Source: Candidatus Gastranaerophilales bacterium
GTDB taxonomy: Bacteria > Cyanobacteriota > Vampirovibrionia > Gastranaerophilales > UBA9971
DNA length: 36,074 bases
Direction: 5' to 3'
Assembly (NCBI GenBank): GCA_028278605.1
Contig: JANQEB010000140.1
Span: 1-36,074 of the forward strand
Every line of letters starts with the position of its first letter. Position 1 is the first letter of the stretch. A program made the position numbers and the translations under genes. The notes under the pieces were generated by a model that was not told where the DNA came from, did no database searches, and was given only the letters and a program-made list of their open reading frames with translations. Shown here piece by piece: positions 7,915 to 31,093 of this stretch.

Positions 7915-8994
7915 TTATTTTTTAGCAAGCATGTAATCGTAAATCTGTGTTCTCTGGAGCCTGTTTGTTCCTCCTTTAACACGGGCATCTATGCTTCTTT
8001 GCACAAGCGGCGCAAAATCTGAATTTGCCAGGAAACCAACATTTCCAAATATGTTTAATACTTCCATTGTTACGTTGCTTGCGGCTTCACTTGCTTTAAC
8101 TTTTGCCATTGAAGCGATTTTTACATTTGGTTTGGTTTTATCCATACAATCTGCGCTATAGTATGTCAGCATTCTTGCGGATTCCGCCTCGCTAAACAGA
8201 TCCGCAAGCGTAAACTGTAAATTCTGGCTTGTGGAAATGCTTTCTCCTGTAGCAGACTTGGTTTCTTTTACTATTTCAATTCCCTTTACTAACGCGCTAT
8301 GGGCAATACCAATTGAAACAGCAGCAACTAAAGTCCTTGCAACTGCCATTGTGCTTTCTAAATTATCGGATATAACAGCTATACATTGATCTTCTTTAAA
8401 TGAATGATTAATTTGTATCTGGTTATAAGGGATTTTAACTGAAGAAATTGTTTTTGCGCTTTCTTCAATCCTAACTTCATTCTCGTGGACTAAGAATAAA
8501 CGGATCTTATTTTCTTCGTCTTTAGCATAAATTATGAATTTATCAGAATAAAGCTGCTCGTTACTTACCAGCTTGGTTCCTTGCACACTCCAGCCCTCAG
8601 CAGTTTTTGAGGCTTTTGTCCGGATATCGCAAAGTCCTGTATAGCCAGGCTCCATGCACAGCAGGCTAACTGTTTCACCTTTTTCAAGGAGGTTTTCAGC
8701 TTTAATACTTGTGTAAGCTTTTAGTATTTCCCTGAAAACAATTTGGTCAGCAAGAATATATGCGGATAAAGAATCATTTTTTGAAATTTCTTCCAGGGAA
8801 ACTGTCATGCCAAGGTAATCATCATAAATTTCATTTTCTGAGGGTAGTGAACCTAGGGACATAGAAAGATAGCTTGTAATTACCTGCTTGGGGTTTCTAT
8901 CGTCCTGAAGATTTTTTTCAATTCTTGAAATCAACTCTTTTGTTTTTTGGATACACTCAAGGTGCTTGTTGCCCAGTTCAAATTGTCCACTCAT
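7915..8994 (-). CDS. Divergent acyl-CoA dehydrogenase homologue, probably not a dehydrogenase
   Basis: Acyl-CoA dehydrogenase fold, 359 residues. MEPGYTGLCDIRTKASK (114-130) and WSVQGTKLVSN correspond to the substrate/flavin region normally reading TEPGAGSD and WxINGxK. The C-terminal helices EVLNIFGNVGFL and RVKGGTNRLQR (338-348) correspond to the YGGxGY and IYEGTxxIQR blocks. The catalytic glutamate before GT is glycine here (G341). The alternative site used by isovaleryl-/long-chain enzymes, before R220, is alanine. The RxxFG that contacts FAD is TKSATG. The N-terminal helical domain is also short. The protein stands alone, preceded by a 527-base gap. A structural, regulatory or non-canonical role is inferred. 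Confidence 0.78.
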   Translation of the reverse strand: MSGQFELGNKHLECIQKTKELISRIEKNLQDDRNPKQVITSYLSMSLGSLPSENEIYDDYLGMTVSLEEISKNDSLSAYILADQIVFREILKAYTSIKAENLLEKGETVSLLCMEPGYTGLCDIRTKASKTAEGWSVQGTKLVSNEQLYSDKFIIYAKDEENKIRLFLVHENEVRIEESAKTISSVKIPYNQIQINHSFKEDQCIAVISDNLESTMAVARTLVAAVSIGIAHSALVKGIEIVKETKSATGESISTSQNLQFTLADLFSEAESARMLTYYSADCMDKTKPNVKIASMAKVKASEAASNVTMEVLNIFGNVGFLANSDFAPLVQRSIDARVKGGTNRLQRTQIYDYMLAKK

Positions 8995-9299
8995 AATTTA
9001 ATCCTCGTCCTTATAATAATAAATTAAACTACCACAAACATTTCATATAAGCTATAAAAGAATTTAAACCGGCTAAGTTTCAATGATAGATTAAATTTTA
9101 GTCTAAAATATTAAAATTTATAAATAAACTTATTAAGTATTGTTAAATTATGACAATTTTTTTAAAAGTATATACTTTATATATATACAAGGCTCAAGAA
9201 ATTTTAAAAAATATCTCATAAAGCACCACATAAATAAAAACCTTACAGAACCCGCTATAAATTTTAAAAAATTACACATAACACTCTAATTTTTAATTT
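8995..9299. other. AT-rich intergenic leader region, no gene seen
   Basis: Very AT-rich divergent gap between the acyl-CoA dehydrogenase homologue and ilvE. A plausible plus-strand promoter core (tatgaca then tatact, about 15 bases apart, near 9147-9175) could start the transcript that ends at the terminator at 9300-9333. No open frame with a ribosome site, T-box or recognisable riboswitch core was found. Confidence 0.35.
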
Positions 9300-9333
9300 A
9301 AAGAGACTATTTTCAAATGGTCTCTTTTTTTTT
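9300..9333 (+). terminator. Rho-independent terminator without an upstream gene
   Basis: Perfect 8-bp stem aaagagac (9300-9307) / gtctcttt (9320-9327) with a 12-base loop, followed by further T residues to 9333. The T tract lies on the plus-strand side only. No plus-strand gene precedes it, so it must end a short non-coding transcript or act as an attenuator in the ilvE leader. Confidence 0.7.
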
Positions 9334-9363
9334 ATAAATTTTGAAAAATTTTGATTTTTACAA

Positions 9364-9430
9364 TTAACCTGAGTCGCCTGCTTAGTGATTTAATCAAAAA
9401 GAAAATCACTAAGCAGGCGACTCAGGTTAA
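9364..9430 (+). repeat. Perfect 28-bp stem hairpin upstream of ilvE
   Basis: Arms 9364-9391 and 9403-9430 are exact reverse complements over 28 bases, with an 11-base loop at 9392-9402 and no mismatch. The arms contain cctgagtcgcctgcttag. There is no T tract after it, so it is not a simple terminator. It stands 92 bases before the ilvE start and 31 bases after the terminator. Confidence 0.85.
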
Positions 9431-9521
9431 GTTAGAGATTCGGGTTATATAGCAAAGTAATATTTTTTTACTTTTTTGTTTATTAATTGTATCCTTTCTA
9501 TAGGAAGAAAGGAGATTTTTT

Positions 9522-10442
9522 ATGAGTACCCAGTACGTTTTTATGGACGGCAAGTTTGTTCCTGAGCAGGAAGCCAAAATTAGCGTAAAAACTCATGCTT
9601 TTTTGTATGGAACTTCTATTTTTGAGGGAATCCGGGGATACTGGAACCCACAGGAGAAGCAGATATATATATTCAGGATGAAAGAGCATTATGAAAGAAT
9701 GCACAAAAACGCAAAAATAATGCACATGGTCCCTGAATACTCCATTGATGAAATGTGCGGTTTAACTGTTGAACTTATGAAAAAAAACGCTCCTGAGGGA
9801 GATATTTACATAAGACCGACTCTATATAAAAGCGAATGTGAGATTGGCCCAAAACTTACAGGGAAGGACTCTTTTCTGATATTTACCTGTATAATAGGTG
9901 ATTATATAGATATTTCAAAAGGGTTAAGCGTGTGTGTTTCCAGTTGGAACAGGCTTGATGACAACACAATTCCCCCCAGGGGAAAAATTTCAGGGGCTTA
10001 CGTAAATACCGGCCTGGTAAAAACAGATGCTATGAATGCCGGTTTTGATGAAGCGATTGTTCTTAGTAAAGACGGGCTTGTTACAGAGGGCAGCGCAATG
10101 AATGTTTATCTTGTTGAAAACGGCCGGTTAATTACTTCAAGGGCAGTTGACAATATTCTTGTGGGAATTACCCGTAATACCATAAAAGAAATGGCTCAAG
10201 AGGAATTGGGACTTGAAGCGGTCGAAAAAGCAATAAACAGAACAGAGCTTTATATGGCGGATGAAGCGTTCTTCTGCGGGACAGGAGCGCAGGTAAGCCC
10301 GATTACAAGTATAGATCACAGGACTATAGGGGACGGAAAAGTCGGCCCTATAACTAAAAAGCTTCAGGATCTGTACTTTGACATTGTAAAAGGAAAAGTA
10401 GAGAAGTATAAGCACTGGTGCACACCGGTTTATGATAATTGA
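9522..10442 (+). CDS. ilvE: Branched-chain amino-acid aminotransferase
   Basis: PLP-dependent fold-IV transaminase for the last step of leucine, isoleucine and valine synthesis and the first step of their breakdown. At 306 residues it is the usual length. Visible: GTSIFEGIRGYWN (30-42), DIYIRPTLYKS with the substrate-side arginine, PPRGKISGAYVN with the PLP lysine K155, and LVTEGSAMN with E189. GTGAQVSPITSID near the end is also typical. Some D-amino-acid transaminases share this fold, but the EGIR and RP motifs favour BCAT. AAAGGAG seven bases before the ATG is a strong ribosome site. It overlaps the mlaE-like gene by 11 bases. The hairpin and terminator upstream suggest a structured leader. 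Confidence 0.93.
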   Translation: MSTQYVFMDGKFVPEQEAKISVKTHAFLYGTSIFEGIRGYWNPQEKQIYIFRMKEHYERMHKNAKIMHMVPEYSIDEMCGLTVELMKKNAPEGDIYIRPTLYKSECEIGPKLTGKDSFLIFTCIIGDYIDISKGLSVCVSSWNRLDDNTIPPRGKISGAYVNTGLVKTDAMNAGFDEAIVLSKDGLVTEGSAMNVYLVENGRLITSRAVDNILVGITRNTIKEMAQEELGLEAVEKAINRTELYMADEAFFCGTGAQVSPITSIDHRTIGDGKVGPITKKLQDLYFDIVKGKVEKYKHWCTPVYDN

Positions 10443-11166
10443 TTTCATTGGTTTTTGCATAATAAACCTGTTTAAGGCAGCTCAAAAGATAGTTAAAGGC
10501 GATATCAGCCTGAAAAACACCATTAACCAGGCTGCTATAATCGGCTATGACTCGCTTCCAATTTCCCTGACAATATCTCTTGTTGCCGGGGCGGTACTTT
10601 CGATGCAAGTGGCCGAGGGTTTCATTATCTCAGGCGCTGATGCCTATATTGGGGGGTTGGTTTCCGTTGCTTTAATAAGGGAAATGGCTCCGATTTTTGC
10701 AAGCCTGGCCATAGGCGCCAGAGCAGGTACTGCTATAACCGCAGAAATCAGTAATATGGTTATTACAGAACAGGTTGATGCGCTTAAAGCCCTGAAAGTA
10801 GACCCTATAGAGTATTTGCTAATTCCAAGGTTAATCGCGGCGGTGATTGTGGTCCCGCTTGTTACTATACTTGCTGAATTGATAGGTATTATTGGGGGGA
10901 TGTTTGTTACAAATATTACGGTTGACTTGCATCCCAGGTTGTATATACAGTCTGTCTGGCTGTATACAGACACTTATGATATCCAGGTAAGCCTTGTTAA
11001 AGCAGCGGTTTTTGGGCTGCTAACCGCGCTTATCTGCACCTGTCATGGCTTAAGGACAAGGGGCGGGGCAAAAGAAATCGGGGTTTCCACCACAAAATCC
11101 GCAATCTGGACAGCTGTTACAATTCTGCTGGCTGACTTGCTTTTGAGCTGGATATTCTTTGCTTAG
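10432..11166 (+). CDS. mlaE: MlaE/YrbE-family lipid ABC transporter permease
   Basis: Inner-membrane permease of the Mla-type phospholipid transporter, 244 residues, with about five hydrophobic helices. Family marks: LTISLVAGAVLSMQVAEGF, VALIREMAPIFASLAIGARAG, the conserved EISNMVITEQVDALKALKVDP loop, and a late GLRTRGGAKEIGVSTTKS block. The partner ATPase (MlaF) and MCE substrate-binding protein (MlaD) are not in this window. The ATG lies inside the last codons of ilvE (11-base overlap) with no clear Shine-Dalgarno sequence, which suggests translational coupling. Coupling to ilvE is unusual functionally and may reflect only shared transcription. Confidence 0.92.
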   Translation: MIIDFIGFCIINLFKAAQKIVKGDISLKNTINQAAIIGYDSLPISLTISLVAGAVLSMQVAEGFIISGADAYIGGLVSVALIREMAPIFASLAIGARAGTAITAEISNMVITEQVDALKALKVDPIEYLLIPRLIAAVIVVPLVTILAELIGIIGGMFVTNITVDLHPRLYIQSVWLYTDTYDIQVSLVKAAVFGLLTALICTCHGLRTRGGAKEIGVSTTKSAIWTAVTILLADLLLSWIFFA

Positions 11167-12452: not shown

Positions 12453-14786
12453 TTATTGTTGTGATGCAAATGCAACTGAAAGTATTTCATCAGGGTTAAT
12501 CTGAGCAACTCTTGAGCCGTCAGGCTTAACAACGTAAGCAATTTCATCACCTGATACTTTAAGTATACCAACAGTACCGCTAAGCGCTGTCCTGGCTGTA
12601 TCGAATACTCCAACGAACGGGTCTGTAAGCGCCATTAAGTAGCTTCTTCCTGCTGCCGGGATTTCTCCGTTGAATAATTCGTTTGTACCGTTACCAATGT
12701 TACACAGGAAGTTTTCAACTGTGTTACCGGCGATAATAGCTGCTCCACCAGCGGTTCTGCCTGCAACACCGGCGACTTTACCGGGCCAGCTGAATGGCCA
12801 TGCCAGGAACCTGCCGATGATGTTAGGATTATCTTCCTGAACAACTGTTGCAGAAAGGATTTCTCTAGGAAGGGTAGTTTTGCAGCCGTCGTTTCCCATA
12901 GAAGTAAATTCTACCCTGATAGCTCCGGACTGGCCTATTCCTGGTCTTACGACTTCGGAGACTTTACCTCTTACTACTGTTCCTGCCGGGTAGAAAACGC
13001 CGTCCATATTTACAGGTTCTGTTGTTTTCGCAACAATTCTATCGCCAACTTCACTGGTTCTGGCTGAAACTATATCTTCAAACTGCATTTTAAGAGTTGG
13101 TATAGTTGTTGTTACGACCTGCGGCTGTAACTGGGCTGCCGCGCCTGTTGGTTGCGGGCATGGCGCAAGAGCCAGTACTTCTCTTAATTCATCGACCATT
13201 GAAGCAACTTCTGACCTTGAAGCAATATCATTAGGCCTTATACAATTACCGTCAGGAAGATCACAAAGGATTCCCGCCTTAAGTGATTCTGCCACATGTG
13301 ATGCAGCCCAGGCTGGTATCTGGTTAGAATCAGGGTAACAGCTAAGGATTTGTTGTGCTTCACAGGCTGAAATCTCGCCGGGAATTGCCTTGGCTATGCT
13401 GCTTAATGCTTCAGCTCTTGTTACAGGGTCTTTAGGCCTGAACATACAGTTTGGATAGCCTTCCATTACTCCGCTGTTGTAAGCTTTGTCAATATCAGCA
13501 TTTGCCCAGTGGCTTAAAGGTACATCATTGAATATTTGCTGCTGGAAGTCGGGAGTTCCCTCAAGAGCTGCGCCTGCTACGATTGCGCTTGCAAACTCAT
13601 CTCTGAGAATAGCAAGGTTTGGCTTGTAAGTCCTGTCAGGATAGCCTGCAAGAACTCCTTGAGCTGCGAGTTTATTAATATCGCACCCTGAAATCATCTG
13701 GTTGCTTACGTCAGGGAACTGAGGGCCTACCGGGCAGGCTGCTCCTGTAGATTGAGGAATAATCACAGGAACAAGAGCAGTTCTCTGGATTTGAAGACCG
13801 CTTGATGTCTGGATTGTTCTTGGGCAACCGCTTAATTGTGAACCTATACCTGTTGCGCAAGGATCACATGGGTTACATGGGTTCATTGCCATTGGAACCG
13901 CCGGAGCGCATGGATTACATGGGTTTGCCATAGGCTGGCATGGGTTGCAGGGATCACATGGATTTACCGGGCAAGCCGCGCCTGTCGGGAATGGATAAAT
14001 AGGTGCCGCTGCTCCCATTGGTGAGCATGGGTTACATGGGTCGTATGGATATAATGGAACCGCTGCGCCTGTTGGGCATAACGGAGCGCATGGGTTGCAG
14101 GGATCACATGGGTTTACCGGACAAGCCGCGCCTGTTGGGTACATTGGCATTGCAGCGCCTGTCATACAAGGATCACAATATGCTGATTGCAGAACTCTTG
14201 TTGTTCCGGGGATGCTACACCTTAAAATTTCAAGGCCTTGTGCAACCTGTACCGGGCATACAGGACCGCAAGCCCCGCCTGCCTGTCTTGTAGGCATAAG
14301 TGTAAGGGCCCCGGCCTGTGGAACAGCGGAAATACCTGCGCAGTTCGTTGAATTTACAGCTACAGCTTCTTCGTCTCCGCCAATTTGTACCATCTGGCTG
14401 CCTTTTGGAATAACAACGCTTGAGCTTCCGATATCCGGGAATGCATATGCCTGTCTTTTGATAATTTTTGCGTTAGGAGCACAGTTTGGAATTACTCCTG
14501 TAATAGGTTCGCAAACCGGAGCTGCTCCGCCCGGGCATTGGGGTTGTGATAATAATGGTGAGTACACTTCCTGCGGAAGTCCTGCCTGGGGCAGTAAAAT
14601 TGGGACTGCCGCGCCTGTTGGGCATGGGCATGGTTCTACAGGACATGGCGCAGGACATGGCATTTGTACTCTTGGCGGCGGGCAAACAGGTGCTGCTGCG
14701 CCGACCTGATCAGCACGTGCAATACCGCCTAATGTCATGATTCCTATTGACAATGCGGCTGCTACTGATAATTTTTTCAAGTTCAT
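12453..14786 (-). CDS. Cys/Pro-rich exported protein with three SLH domains
   Basis: Exported envelope protein of 777 residues. The start is set at 14786, not the upstream in-frame ATG at 14804, because AAGGAGG lies six bases before it and it gives a clean signal peptide ([20 protein letters not shown], cleavage near ARA-DQ). Residues about 30-310 are low-complexity, with repeated PTGAA-x-P units and cysteine ladders such as NPCDPCNPC (twice) and DPCNPC. About 40 cysteines occur overall. Three SLH domains follow: about 358-408 ([10 protein letters not shown]), 418-467 ([18 protein letters not shown]) and 482-538. The C-terminal ~220 residues include a beta-rich [15 protein letters not shown] region. 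It is probably a disulfide-linked surface or cell-wall-anchoring protein. Its exact role is unknown. Confidence 0.85.
13938..14150. repeat. Direct repeat encoding the Cys-Pro ladder
   Basis: A 53-base unit at 13938-13990 recurs at 14098-14150 with about four changes (160-base spacing). Each encodes [17 protein letters not shown] on the minus strand. Shorter variants (ggatcacatgggtt) sit around 13859-13930 and 14020-14040. This is an in-frame coding repeat, likely to expand and contract by recombination or slippage. Confidence 0.85.
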
Positions 14787-15199
14787 AAAAAACCTCCTTA
14801 ACATCTACAACTAATAAAGAAGTATTAACTTCATGGAATCTAAGTCTTTGCGATTGGATTTTTTCCTATAATTTTCCTCCAATTTCTTGATTAAACAGGT
14901 AACTTTTACATGTGCAAAAAATTTCTCCTCCTTACATAGAATTATTAAACTTTAGTGCTCATATATTCATTACCGGATCTTCTTATTCTTTAAGATAGTT
15001 ATCGGGTAATCTTTTAGCTTTTATTGCTAGTAGTAAAAGACTAGAAATTTTTGCTTTTGTAATTAGTTATAAATTTTTTATAAATTTTAAAAAGTTTTAA
15101 TGTTTTACGTAATTAGCTATCAAGGTTAAATAATTGATCTACCCATGGGTTATCTGATAGTATTAGATAGATTTTGTAGAGTTATTTACAGGAATTGCA
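14787..15199. other. AT-rich leader of the SLH gene, no gene seen
   Basis: Gap between the divergent SLH-protein and toxin genes. On the minus strand it holds three Shine-Dalgarno-like boxes: aaggaggag (14933-14925), ggagg (near 14880) and the gene's own aaggagg (near 14793). The first precedes an ATG-TAA start-stop pair at 14911-14906. No confident promoter was found, and no antitoxin gene is visible before the plus-strand toxin gene. Confidence 0.45.
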
Positions 15200-30710: not shown

Positions 30711-31093
30711 AATTTTCAACCTTGTAATTTTTATGCACACCTGAAAATCAGGCATTTTAAAACAGGGGTATTATCCCTGTTGATTTTATTTTATACCAAA
30801 AACAGTTTTTAAATACAAGTTTTTTCGTAACTACTCAGGTACCTGTACTGCAAAAATTTTTCAAAATCGCCCGCCACGCCCTCCCTGATTGAGGTTAAAG
30901 GACTTCGCCCTTTAACAATTCTATATAGATTTTGAAAAATTTTTAATTTCATAGGCCTGAGCAGTTACATTTTTTCTTTAAGCAGGGTAGGAAAAAGAAA
31001 ATTGCGGCAGTGGTGTTTTTTGTCCTGATATCATTGTGAGAAGTGAAACGAGAGGGAAAACCATTTGATATTGGGGTGTCCGTGTCAAATAAT
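30711..31093. repeat. Gap with a complete inverted-repeat element and a repeat fragment
   Basis: No gene is visible. It holds the element at 30827-30968 and, at about 31002-31056, a degenerate half of family 1 (gcggcagtggtgt, then atcattgtgag). cagggg-tattat-ccctg at 30760-30780 is a small hairpin upstream of rpmG. Confidence 0.6.
30827..30968. mobile_element. MITE-like element (family 2)
   Basis: A 142-base unit with 13-base terminal inverted repeats gtaactactcagg (30827-30839) and cctgagcagttac (30956-30968), one mismatch. A second inverted pair lies inside (aaaaatttttcaaaatc against gattttgaaaaattttt). The centre has a hairpin, gttaaagg-acttcg-ccctttaac. Non-coding. A solo end, ggtaactactcag, sits at about 7818. 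Confidence 0.65.

Follow-up and report, generated by a model that had tools for sequence, protein, structure and literature searches.

The perfect hairpin upstream of an ilvE-type aminotransferase gene in a Candidatus Gastranaerophilales bacterium is very probably a MITE, 61 nt in length, that belongs to an IS982-like transposon, lies nested within an older MITE from the same family and stands apart from the likely ilvE promoter on its upstream side. The hairpin lies in a 36,074-nt stretch of DNA (hereafter, the window) from a 2.6-Mb draft genome (G000; 308 contigs, 92.5% complete). This reading draws on computed membership in a family of dispersed ends, a 6-bp target-site duplication (TSD) rule, transposase sequences beside such ends, a conserved promoter-like block downstream of the hairpin, the absence of the hairpin from sister species, and a match to the empty insertion site.

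We propose that two transposon ends with little else between them would pair into the stem and that the transposase of a full-length relative would act in trans to insert the element. The target, a TAATTA within the right end of an earlier family copy, would have been duplicated on insertion; this older MITE probably also includes a terminator-like stem at 9300–9327 and the AT-rich sequence that follows. Replication template switching would then have copied one arm onto the other, leaving the arms free of mismatches.

The hairpin, the terminator-like stem and their surroundings

Comparison with shuffled sequences confirmed that both structures are real and far past chance. Positions 9300–9333 contain a 12-bp stem (9300–9311 paired with 9316–9327) followed by a T run, an arrangement with terminator-like geometry. 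The stem at 9300–9327 folds at −12.7 kcal/mol (z = −5.3), and the surrounding region (9000–9700) contains two terminator-like sites versus 0.4 expected from shuffles. The hairpin at 9364–9430 (−49.3 kcal/mol, z = −13.0) pairs 9364–9391 with 9403–9430 over 28 bp at 100% complementarity, encloses an 11-nt loop and is the longest perfect inverted repeat in the window. The preliminary description of this DNA had claimed a plus-strand terminator and a mismatch-free 28-bp stem with an 11-base loop, and both claims hold.

The same description had raised the question of further copies of the arm, which has a different answer for the whole arm than for its ends. With up to three mismatches allowed, the exact arm occurs at a single place in its own genome and is absent from the other 96 genomes searched; additional collections of genome contigs and viral contigs likewise contained no match. 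The terminal 14 bases of the arm, by contrast, are part of a family with more than 100 members in G000, at many unrelated places, as sampled through searches and fetched stretches. At the gathering threshold, no Rfam family matched except a distant tRNA. Relaxed thresholds added matches to miRNA models from eukaryotes, which score well on any long stem without mismatches, and these were set aside as chance.

The features of the region are as follows.

9300–9327, plus strand: terminator-like stem-loop with T run that probably formed the middle of an older MITE (folding; stem, T run and ATAAATTTTGAARAATTTTRA recur at loci L225 and L227)
9331–9360, plus strand: AT-rich module assigned to the older MITE (G000 and G002 together have 7 copies, the reversed control 0; 30/30 identity to G002:C48)
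9361–9366, plus strand: probable relic of the left target-site repeat, CAATTA where TAATTA is expected (position relative to the AC end; 6-bp TSD rule; TAATTA in L079)
9367–9427, unstranded: 61-nt miniature element, AC...GT (ends set by the TSDs of 32 family members)
9367–9378, unstranded: left terminal inverted repeat ACCTGAGTCGCC, common to the dispersed family
9379–9415, unstranded: inner arms TGCTTAGTGATTT/AAATCACTAAGCA with loop 9392–9402 (matches elsewhere to 9390–9418)
9416–9427, unstranded: right terminal inverted repeat GGCGACTCAGGT, common to the dispersed family
9428–9434, plus strand: probable relic of the right target-site repeat, TAAGTTA where TAATTA is expected, with one extra G (6-bp TSD rule)
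9435–9451, plus strand: right end of the older element, GAGATTCGGGT, and a TATATA target-type hexamer (1 mismatch to GCGAYTCRRGTTANNTA; same end in L079)
9467–9495, plus strand: likely ilvE promoter, TTTACT-17 nt-TATCCT (predicted from sequence; conserved in G001, G002, G006, G007 and G009)
9522–10442, plus strand: class IV aminotransferase, ilvE-type (Pfam Aminotran_4, E 1.2e-38)
10432–11166, plus strand: MlaE permease (Pfam MlaE, E 5.5e-63)

The 61-nt element is the whole hairpin minus a 3-bp flank on each side. On the other side of the block lies a divergent acyl-CoA dehydrogenase-like gene (7915–8994, minus strand). Further along the window, the minus strand at 12453–14804 encodes a probable envelope protein of 783 aa that has SLH-like repeats as well as long repeats rich in Cys and Pro (NPCDPCNPC).

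A dispersed repeat family and its IS982-like parent

Partial blastn matches of the intergenic region are numerous in the genus, and reading these sites led to the identification of a family characterized by the end ...GGCGACTCRRGTTA together with its reverse complement. The sequence GGCGACTNNNGTTA occurs 24 times in G000 versus 2 in a reversed control, and the end motif GCGAYTCRRGTTANNTA (at most one mismatch) occurs 164 times versus 1. Counts of this motif in relatives are 266 (G001), 208 (G002), 254 (G005), 51 (G006), 34 (G008) and 25 (G012), and are near zero in family f2 (38 genomes in the search). The window site alone holds three family ends, at 9361, 9417 and 9435. Several copies are found no more than about 150 bases from the end of a contig, a placement to be expected if such repeats interrupt assembly.

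Elements read from AC to GT are flanked by a characteristic target duplication. Exact agreement between the two 6-bp flanks is seen in 32 of the 54 two-ended elements, while shuffling the partners yields a mean of 11 and never more than 19. The observed fraction describes a sample picked via the end motif and partly via paired hits and is not genome-wide; at 4, 5, 7, 8 or 9 bp, flank identity is seen in none of the 54. Among the non-palindromic hexamers (n = 30), 16 are direct repeats versus 2 inverted repeats, and the target hexamers are mostly of the type TANNTA. Element sizes range from 42 to 227 nt among those read and cluster at 58, 150–170 and about 200 nt, the commonest short class (58 nt) being near the 61 nt of the window element. 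Judged by its sequences, this is a family that moves or has moved.

Some loci carry more complex arrangements. At L169 (G001:C50:103-132), two family ends meet head to head and have one TAATTA in common (TAATTGGCGACTCGAGTTAATTAACTCGAGTCGCCAATTA), forming an abutting-ends junction. At L208 (G005:C13:16400-17900), the stretch between family ends 964 nt apart with the TSD TAAATA appears to contain at least two shorter elements, which would make it a composite or nested insertion. The window also holds a different, second MITE-like element at 30828–30967, with ends TAACTACTCAGG ... CCTGAGCAGTTA and a central stem of the AAAGGACTTCGCCCTTT type; its sequence CCTGAGYAGTTA occurs 26 times in G000 and never in the reversed control.

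A full-length relative is found at G003:C16 (L189), where ends 871 nt apart, read AC to GT and bordered on both sides by the TSD TAGTTA, enclose a 264-aa open frame. The best NCBIfam match of this frame is the IS982 transposase family NF033520 (107.3 bits, E 9e-31, against a curated cut-off of 130), the next family scoring 38.5 bits, and Pfam assigns it to DDE_Tnp_1 (3.5e-11). We call the parent 'IS982-like' because the transposase scores under the curated cut-off. Described IS982 members have AC ends of the form 5'-AC(N)6T(N)5TT, direct repeats of 2–10 bp and lengths of 845–1282 bp (PMC7335449). The ends of L189, ACTCGAATTGCTAAAT and ACTCGAATTGCTAGTT, fit this consensus, and its 871-nt length and 6-bp direct repeat fall within these ranges, whereas the GCGACTC sub-class of family ends departs from the consensus at position 9. 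A second relative, at G006:C33, is 893 nt long with the TSD TAAATA and appears to be rearranged, since its transposase matches lie on opposite strands.

Within G000 we identified five transposase remnants, three of which (on C46, C60 and C62) are followed by family ends within about 30 bases. The remnant on C62 is adjoined by TAATTCGCGACTCGGGT, which is of the GCGACTC sub-class, the same as the hairpin. No intact transposase was found in this fragmented, 92.5% complete draft. The dispersed ends, the 6-bp TSDs, the IS982-like full-length relatives (871–893 nt) and the remnants beside the same ends thus point to the hairpin as a MITE of an IS982-like transposon. Its features are those of a MITE: terminal inverted repeats, a 61-nt length without a transposase gene, and membership of a dispersed multi-copy family with a putative autonomous parent that shares its ends.

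Probable nesting and a proposed origin of the perfect arms

The empty counterpart of the insertion site can be recognized elsewhere. When the window flanks are joined without the hairpin, they align across the join to G000:C18 (L078) at 86% over 49 nt and to G002:C48 (L079) at 85% over 41 nt, and the latter locus contains TTTTGAAGAATTTTGATTTTTATAATTAGAGATTCGAGTTA uninterrupted. These alignments and the uninterrupted L079 sequence suggest that the hairpin interrupts one end of an older element. Before insertion the site would have read TTTTTAYAATTAGAGATTCGGGTTA. The TSD of the window copy itself is decayed (CAATTA / TAAGTTA), so that insertion at this site rests on the empty-site match; the target TAATTA probably acquired a single substitution and an extra G at a later time.

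The terminator-like stem probably has its place in the same older element. The AT-rich module TTATAAATTTTGAARAATTTTRA that follows it is present in seven copies in G000 and G002, counting the window copy, and in none in the reversed control. At L225 and L227 the module comes after a G+C-rich perfect stem and T run, while at L223 and L229 it comes after CCTCATTTTT, apparently the remainder of such a stem. As the module follows a stem and T run at other loci too, the window stem is likely the centre of the older element. Two candidates for the left end of this element (near 9243 and 9280, located by eye or alignment) were not significant, since 545 of 2000 shuffles did as well; how far the element extends and where the stem falls in it are therefore given as the likely reading.

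These observations bear on whether the terminator could instead end a small RNA gene, with the hairpin an unrelated insertion. The good terminator geometry and some 300 bases of non-coding DNA upstream fit such a gene, but the plus strand near 9100–9250 has no sigma-70-like promoter above chance, 9000–9300 is not conserved in relatives past AT-rich chance matches, and the unit of stem, T run and ATAAATTTTGAARAATTTTRA recurs within dispersed elements. Because the terminator is joined to a module that recurs beside other stems within such elements, no separate small RNA gene is needed, and we consider one unlikely.

The perfection of the arms calls for a separate explanation. In a comparison of 50 distinct short elements, the terminal stem within the element is perfectly paired over 25 bp in the window copy and over 17, 16 and 13 bp in the next three. 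The 13-bp inner arms are absent from the common 58-nt class. The loop and right inner arm (TTAATCAAAAAGAAAATCACTAAGCAGGC; 9390–9418) match one-sided copies elsewhere (97% over 29 nt at G002:C88, 94% over 31 nt at G002:C94 and 92% over 25 nt at G000:C208), which suggests that the right half is probably original and the left inner arm its copy. Replication template switching is reported to be able to make and maintain such hairpins (PMC8794818), and homogenization by this route is most likely how the mismatch-free arms arose. Hairpin length alone is unremarkable, as L239, elsewhere in G000, has a perfect hairpin of equal length whose loop is 4 nt.

Two other accounts of the pairing carry less weight. 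It is very unlikely that the element is a minimal, still mobile two-end transposon whose palindrome is kept because the hairpin, as single-stranded DNA or RNA, is recognized by the transposase or a host factor. A false palindrome created during library preparation or assembly as a fold-back chimera is highly improbable: while the genome is a draft, the perfect copy is single and the reads cannot be inspected, the loop is asymmetric, the right inner arm, loop and both ends occur elsewhere in natural contexts, and, of the two flanks, one leads into the conserved promoter block and the other into an element of known type.

The likely ilvE promoter and relation to known elements

A promoter-like block, TTTACT-17 nt-TATYCT, lies upstream of the orthologous aminotransferase gene in six genomes (G000, G001, G002, G006, G007 and G009). 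In the window, this candidate promoter (9467–9495) sits between the hairpin and the gene, placing the hairpin upstream of it. No hairpin-like feature was found upstream of the ilvE orthologues in the genus-mates G001 and G002 or in the other relatives read. Conservation is thus split, with the promoter block retained in five relatives and the hairpin in none.

This arrangement speaks against an attenuator or other RNA-based leader of the ilvE-mlaE operon, which the preliminary description had offered as one reading of the hairpin. Such a leader could draw on the stable stem about 90 nt 5' of the start codon and on the terminator that precedes it, but the hairpin has no T run after it and no Rfam cis-regulatory match, lies outside the interval between the predicted promoter and the gene, and is missing from the orthologous leaders of both genus-mates. 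Given the likely downstream promoter and the genus-mates without a hairpin, we find it scarcely credible that the hairpin or the terminator stem is an ilvE leader, and T-box and attenuator candidates were rejected on the same grounds of promoter position and missing conservation. The palindromic insertion that the description had listed as another option is the reading that stands, as the hairpin ends belong to a dispersed, TSD-flanked family and the orthologous regions of the same genus lack the hairpin.

Two additional observations concern ilvE. A stem at 9492–9513 (TCCTTTC...GAAAGGA), followed by TTTTTT and mostly kept in G002 and G001, overlaps the −10 box and the ribosome-binding site; it could be an operator or a by-product of a purine-rich Shine-Dalgarno sequence. 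The ilvE matches in family f2 at L017, L018, L020-L023, L026 and L028 have one TAA/TAG inside the matched stretch, which may be the true stop codon a few residues before the alignment end.

Mobilization of a REP-type palindrome by a Y1 (RAYT) transposase is close to negligible as an explanation, since the family members have terminal inverted repeats and 6-bp target duplications, the linked transposase is a DDE enzyme and the exact palindrome is single-copy, even though a short palindrome in intergenic DNA is what REP elements would provide. An integron attC site was considered for the GTT-containing ends and looks unlikely, the stem being without bulges.

Lying among the remnants of an older copy, with the gene's likely promoter further downstream, the hairpin looks like genomic litter rather than an ilvE switch, and we infer that it has no effect on ilvE. 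Its only unusual trait is its perfect pairing; otherwise it is an ordinary decayed MITE nested in another. This assignment removes a false regulatory lead, and stems or terminators upstream of genes in such genomes should be checked against the repeat family before being called riboswitches or small RNAs. The family comes in several size classes with some copies nested, has an IS982-like parent and reaches hundreds of ends per genome; it probably adds to the fragmentation of these assemblies.

The literature searched, with most subscription journals outside its coverage, contained no description of this repeat family for Gastranaerophilales. The G003:C16 parent resembles the IS982 family (PMC7335449; for example, ISNsp1 of Nostoc) in its AC ends, inverted repeat type, 6-bp direct repeat, length and DDE transposase, and differs in its transposase, which does not reach the NCBIfam cut-off and shares about 30% identity with IS982 transposases annotated on plasmids. 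Among described elements the closest is MITECca01 of Cardinium, a MITE derived from IS982 and present in 169 copies (PMC9769881). It is similarly short and transposase-free, has IS982-family ends, exceeds 100 copies in a single genome and is mostly found in intergenic DNA and within other mobile elements. Whereas MITECca01 is one uniform element of about 240 bp, the Gastranaerophilales family has many size classes and several end sub-classes. The nested MITEs SPRITE, RUP and BOX of Streptococcus pneumoniae, some of which have the shape of Rho-independent terminators (review PMC10969869), provide a parallel in another host, likened here by description alone, for the combination of MITEs within MITEs and terminator shapes at the window site.
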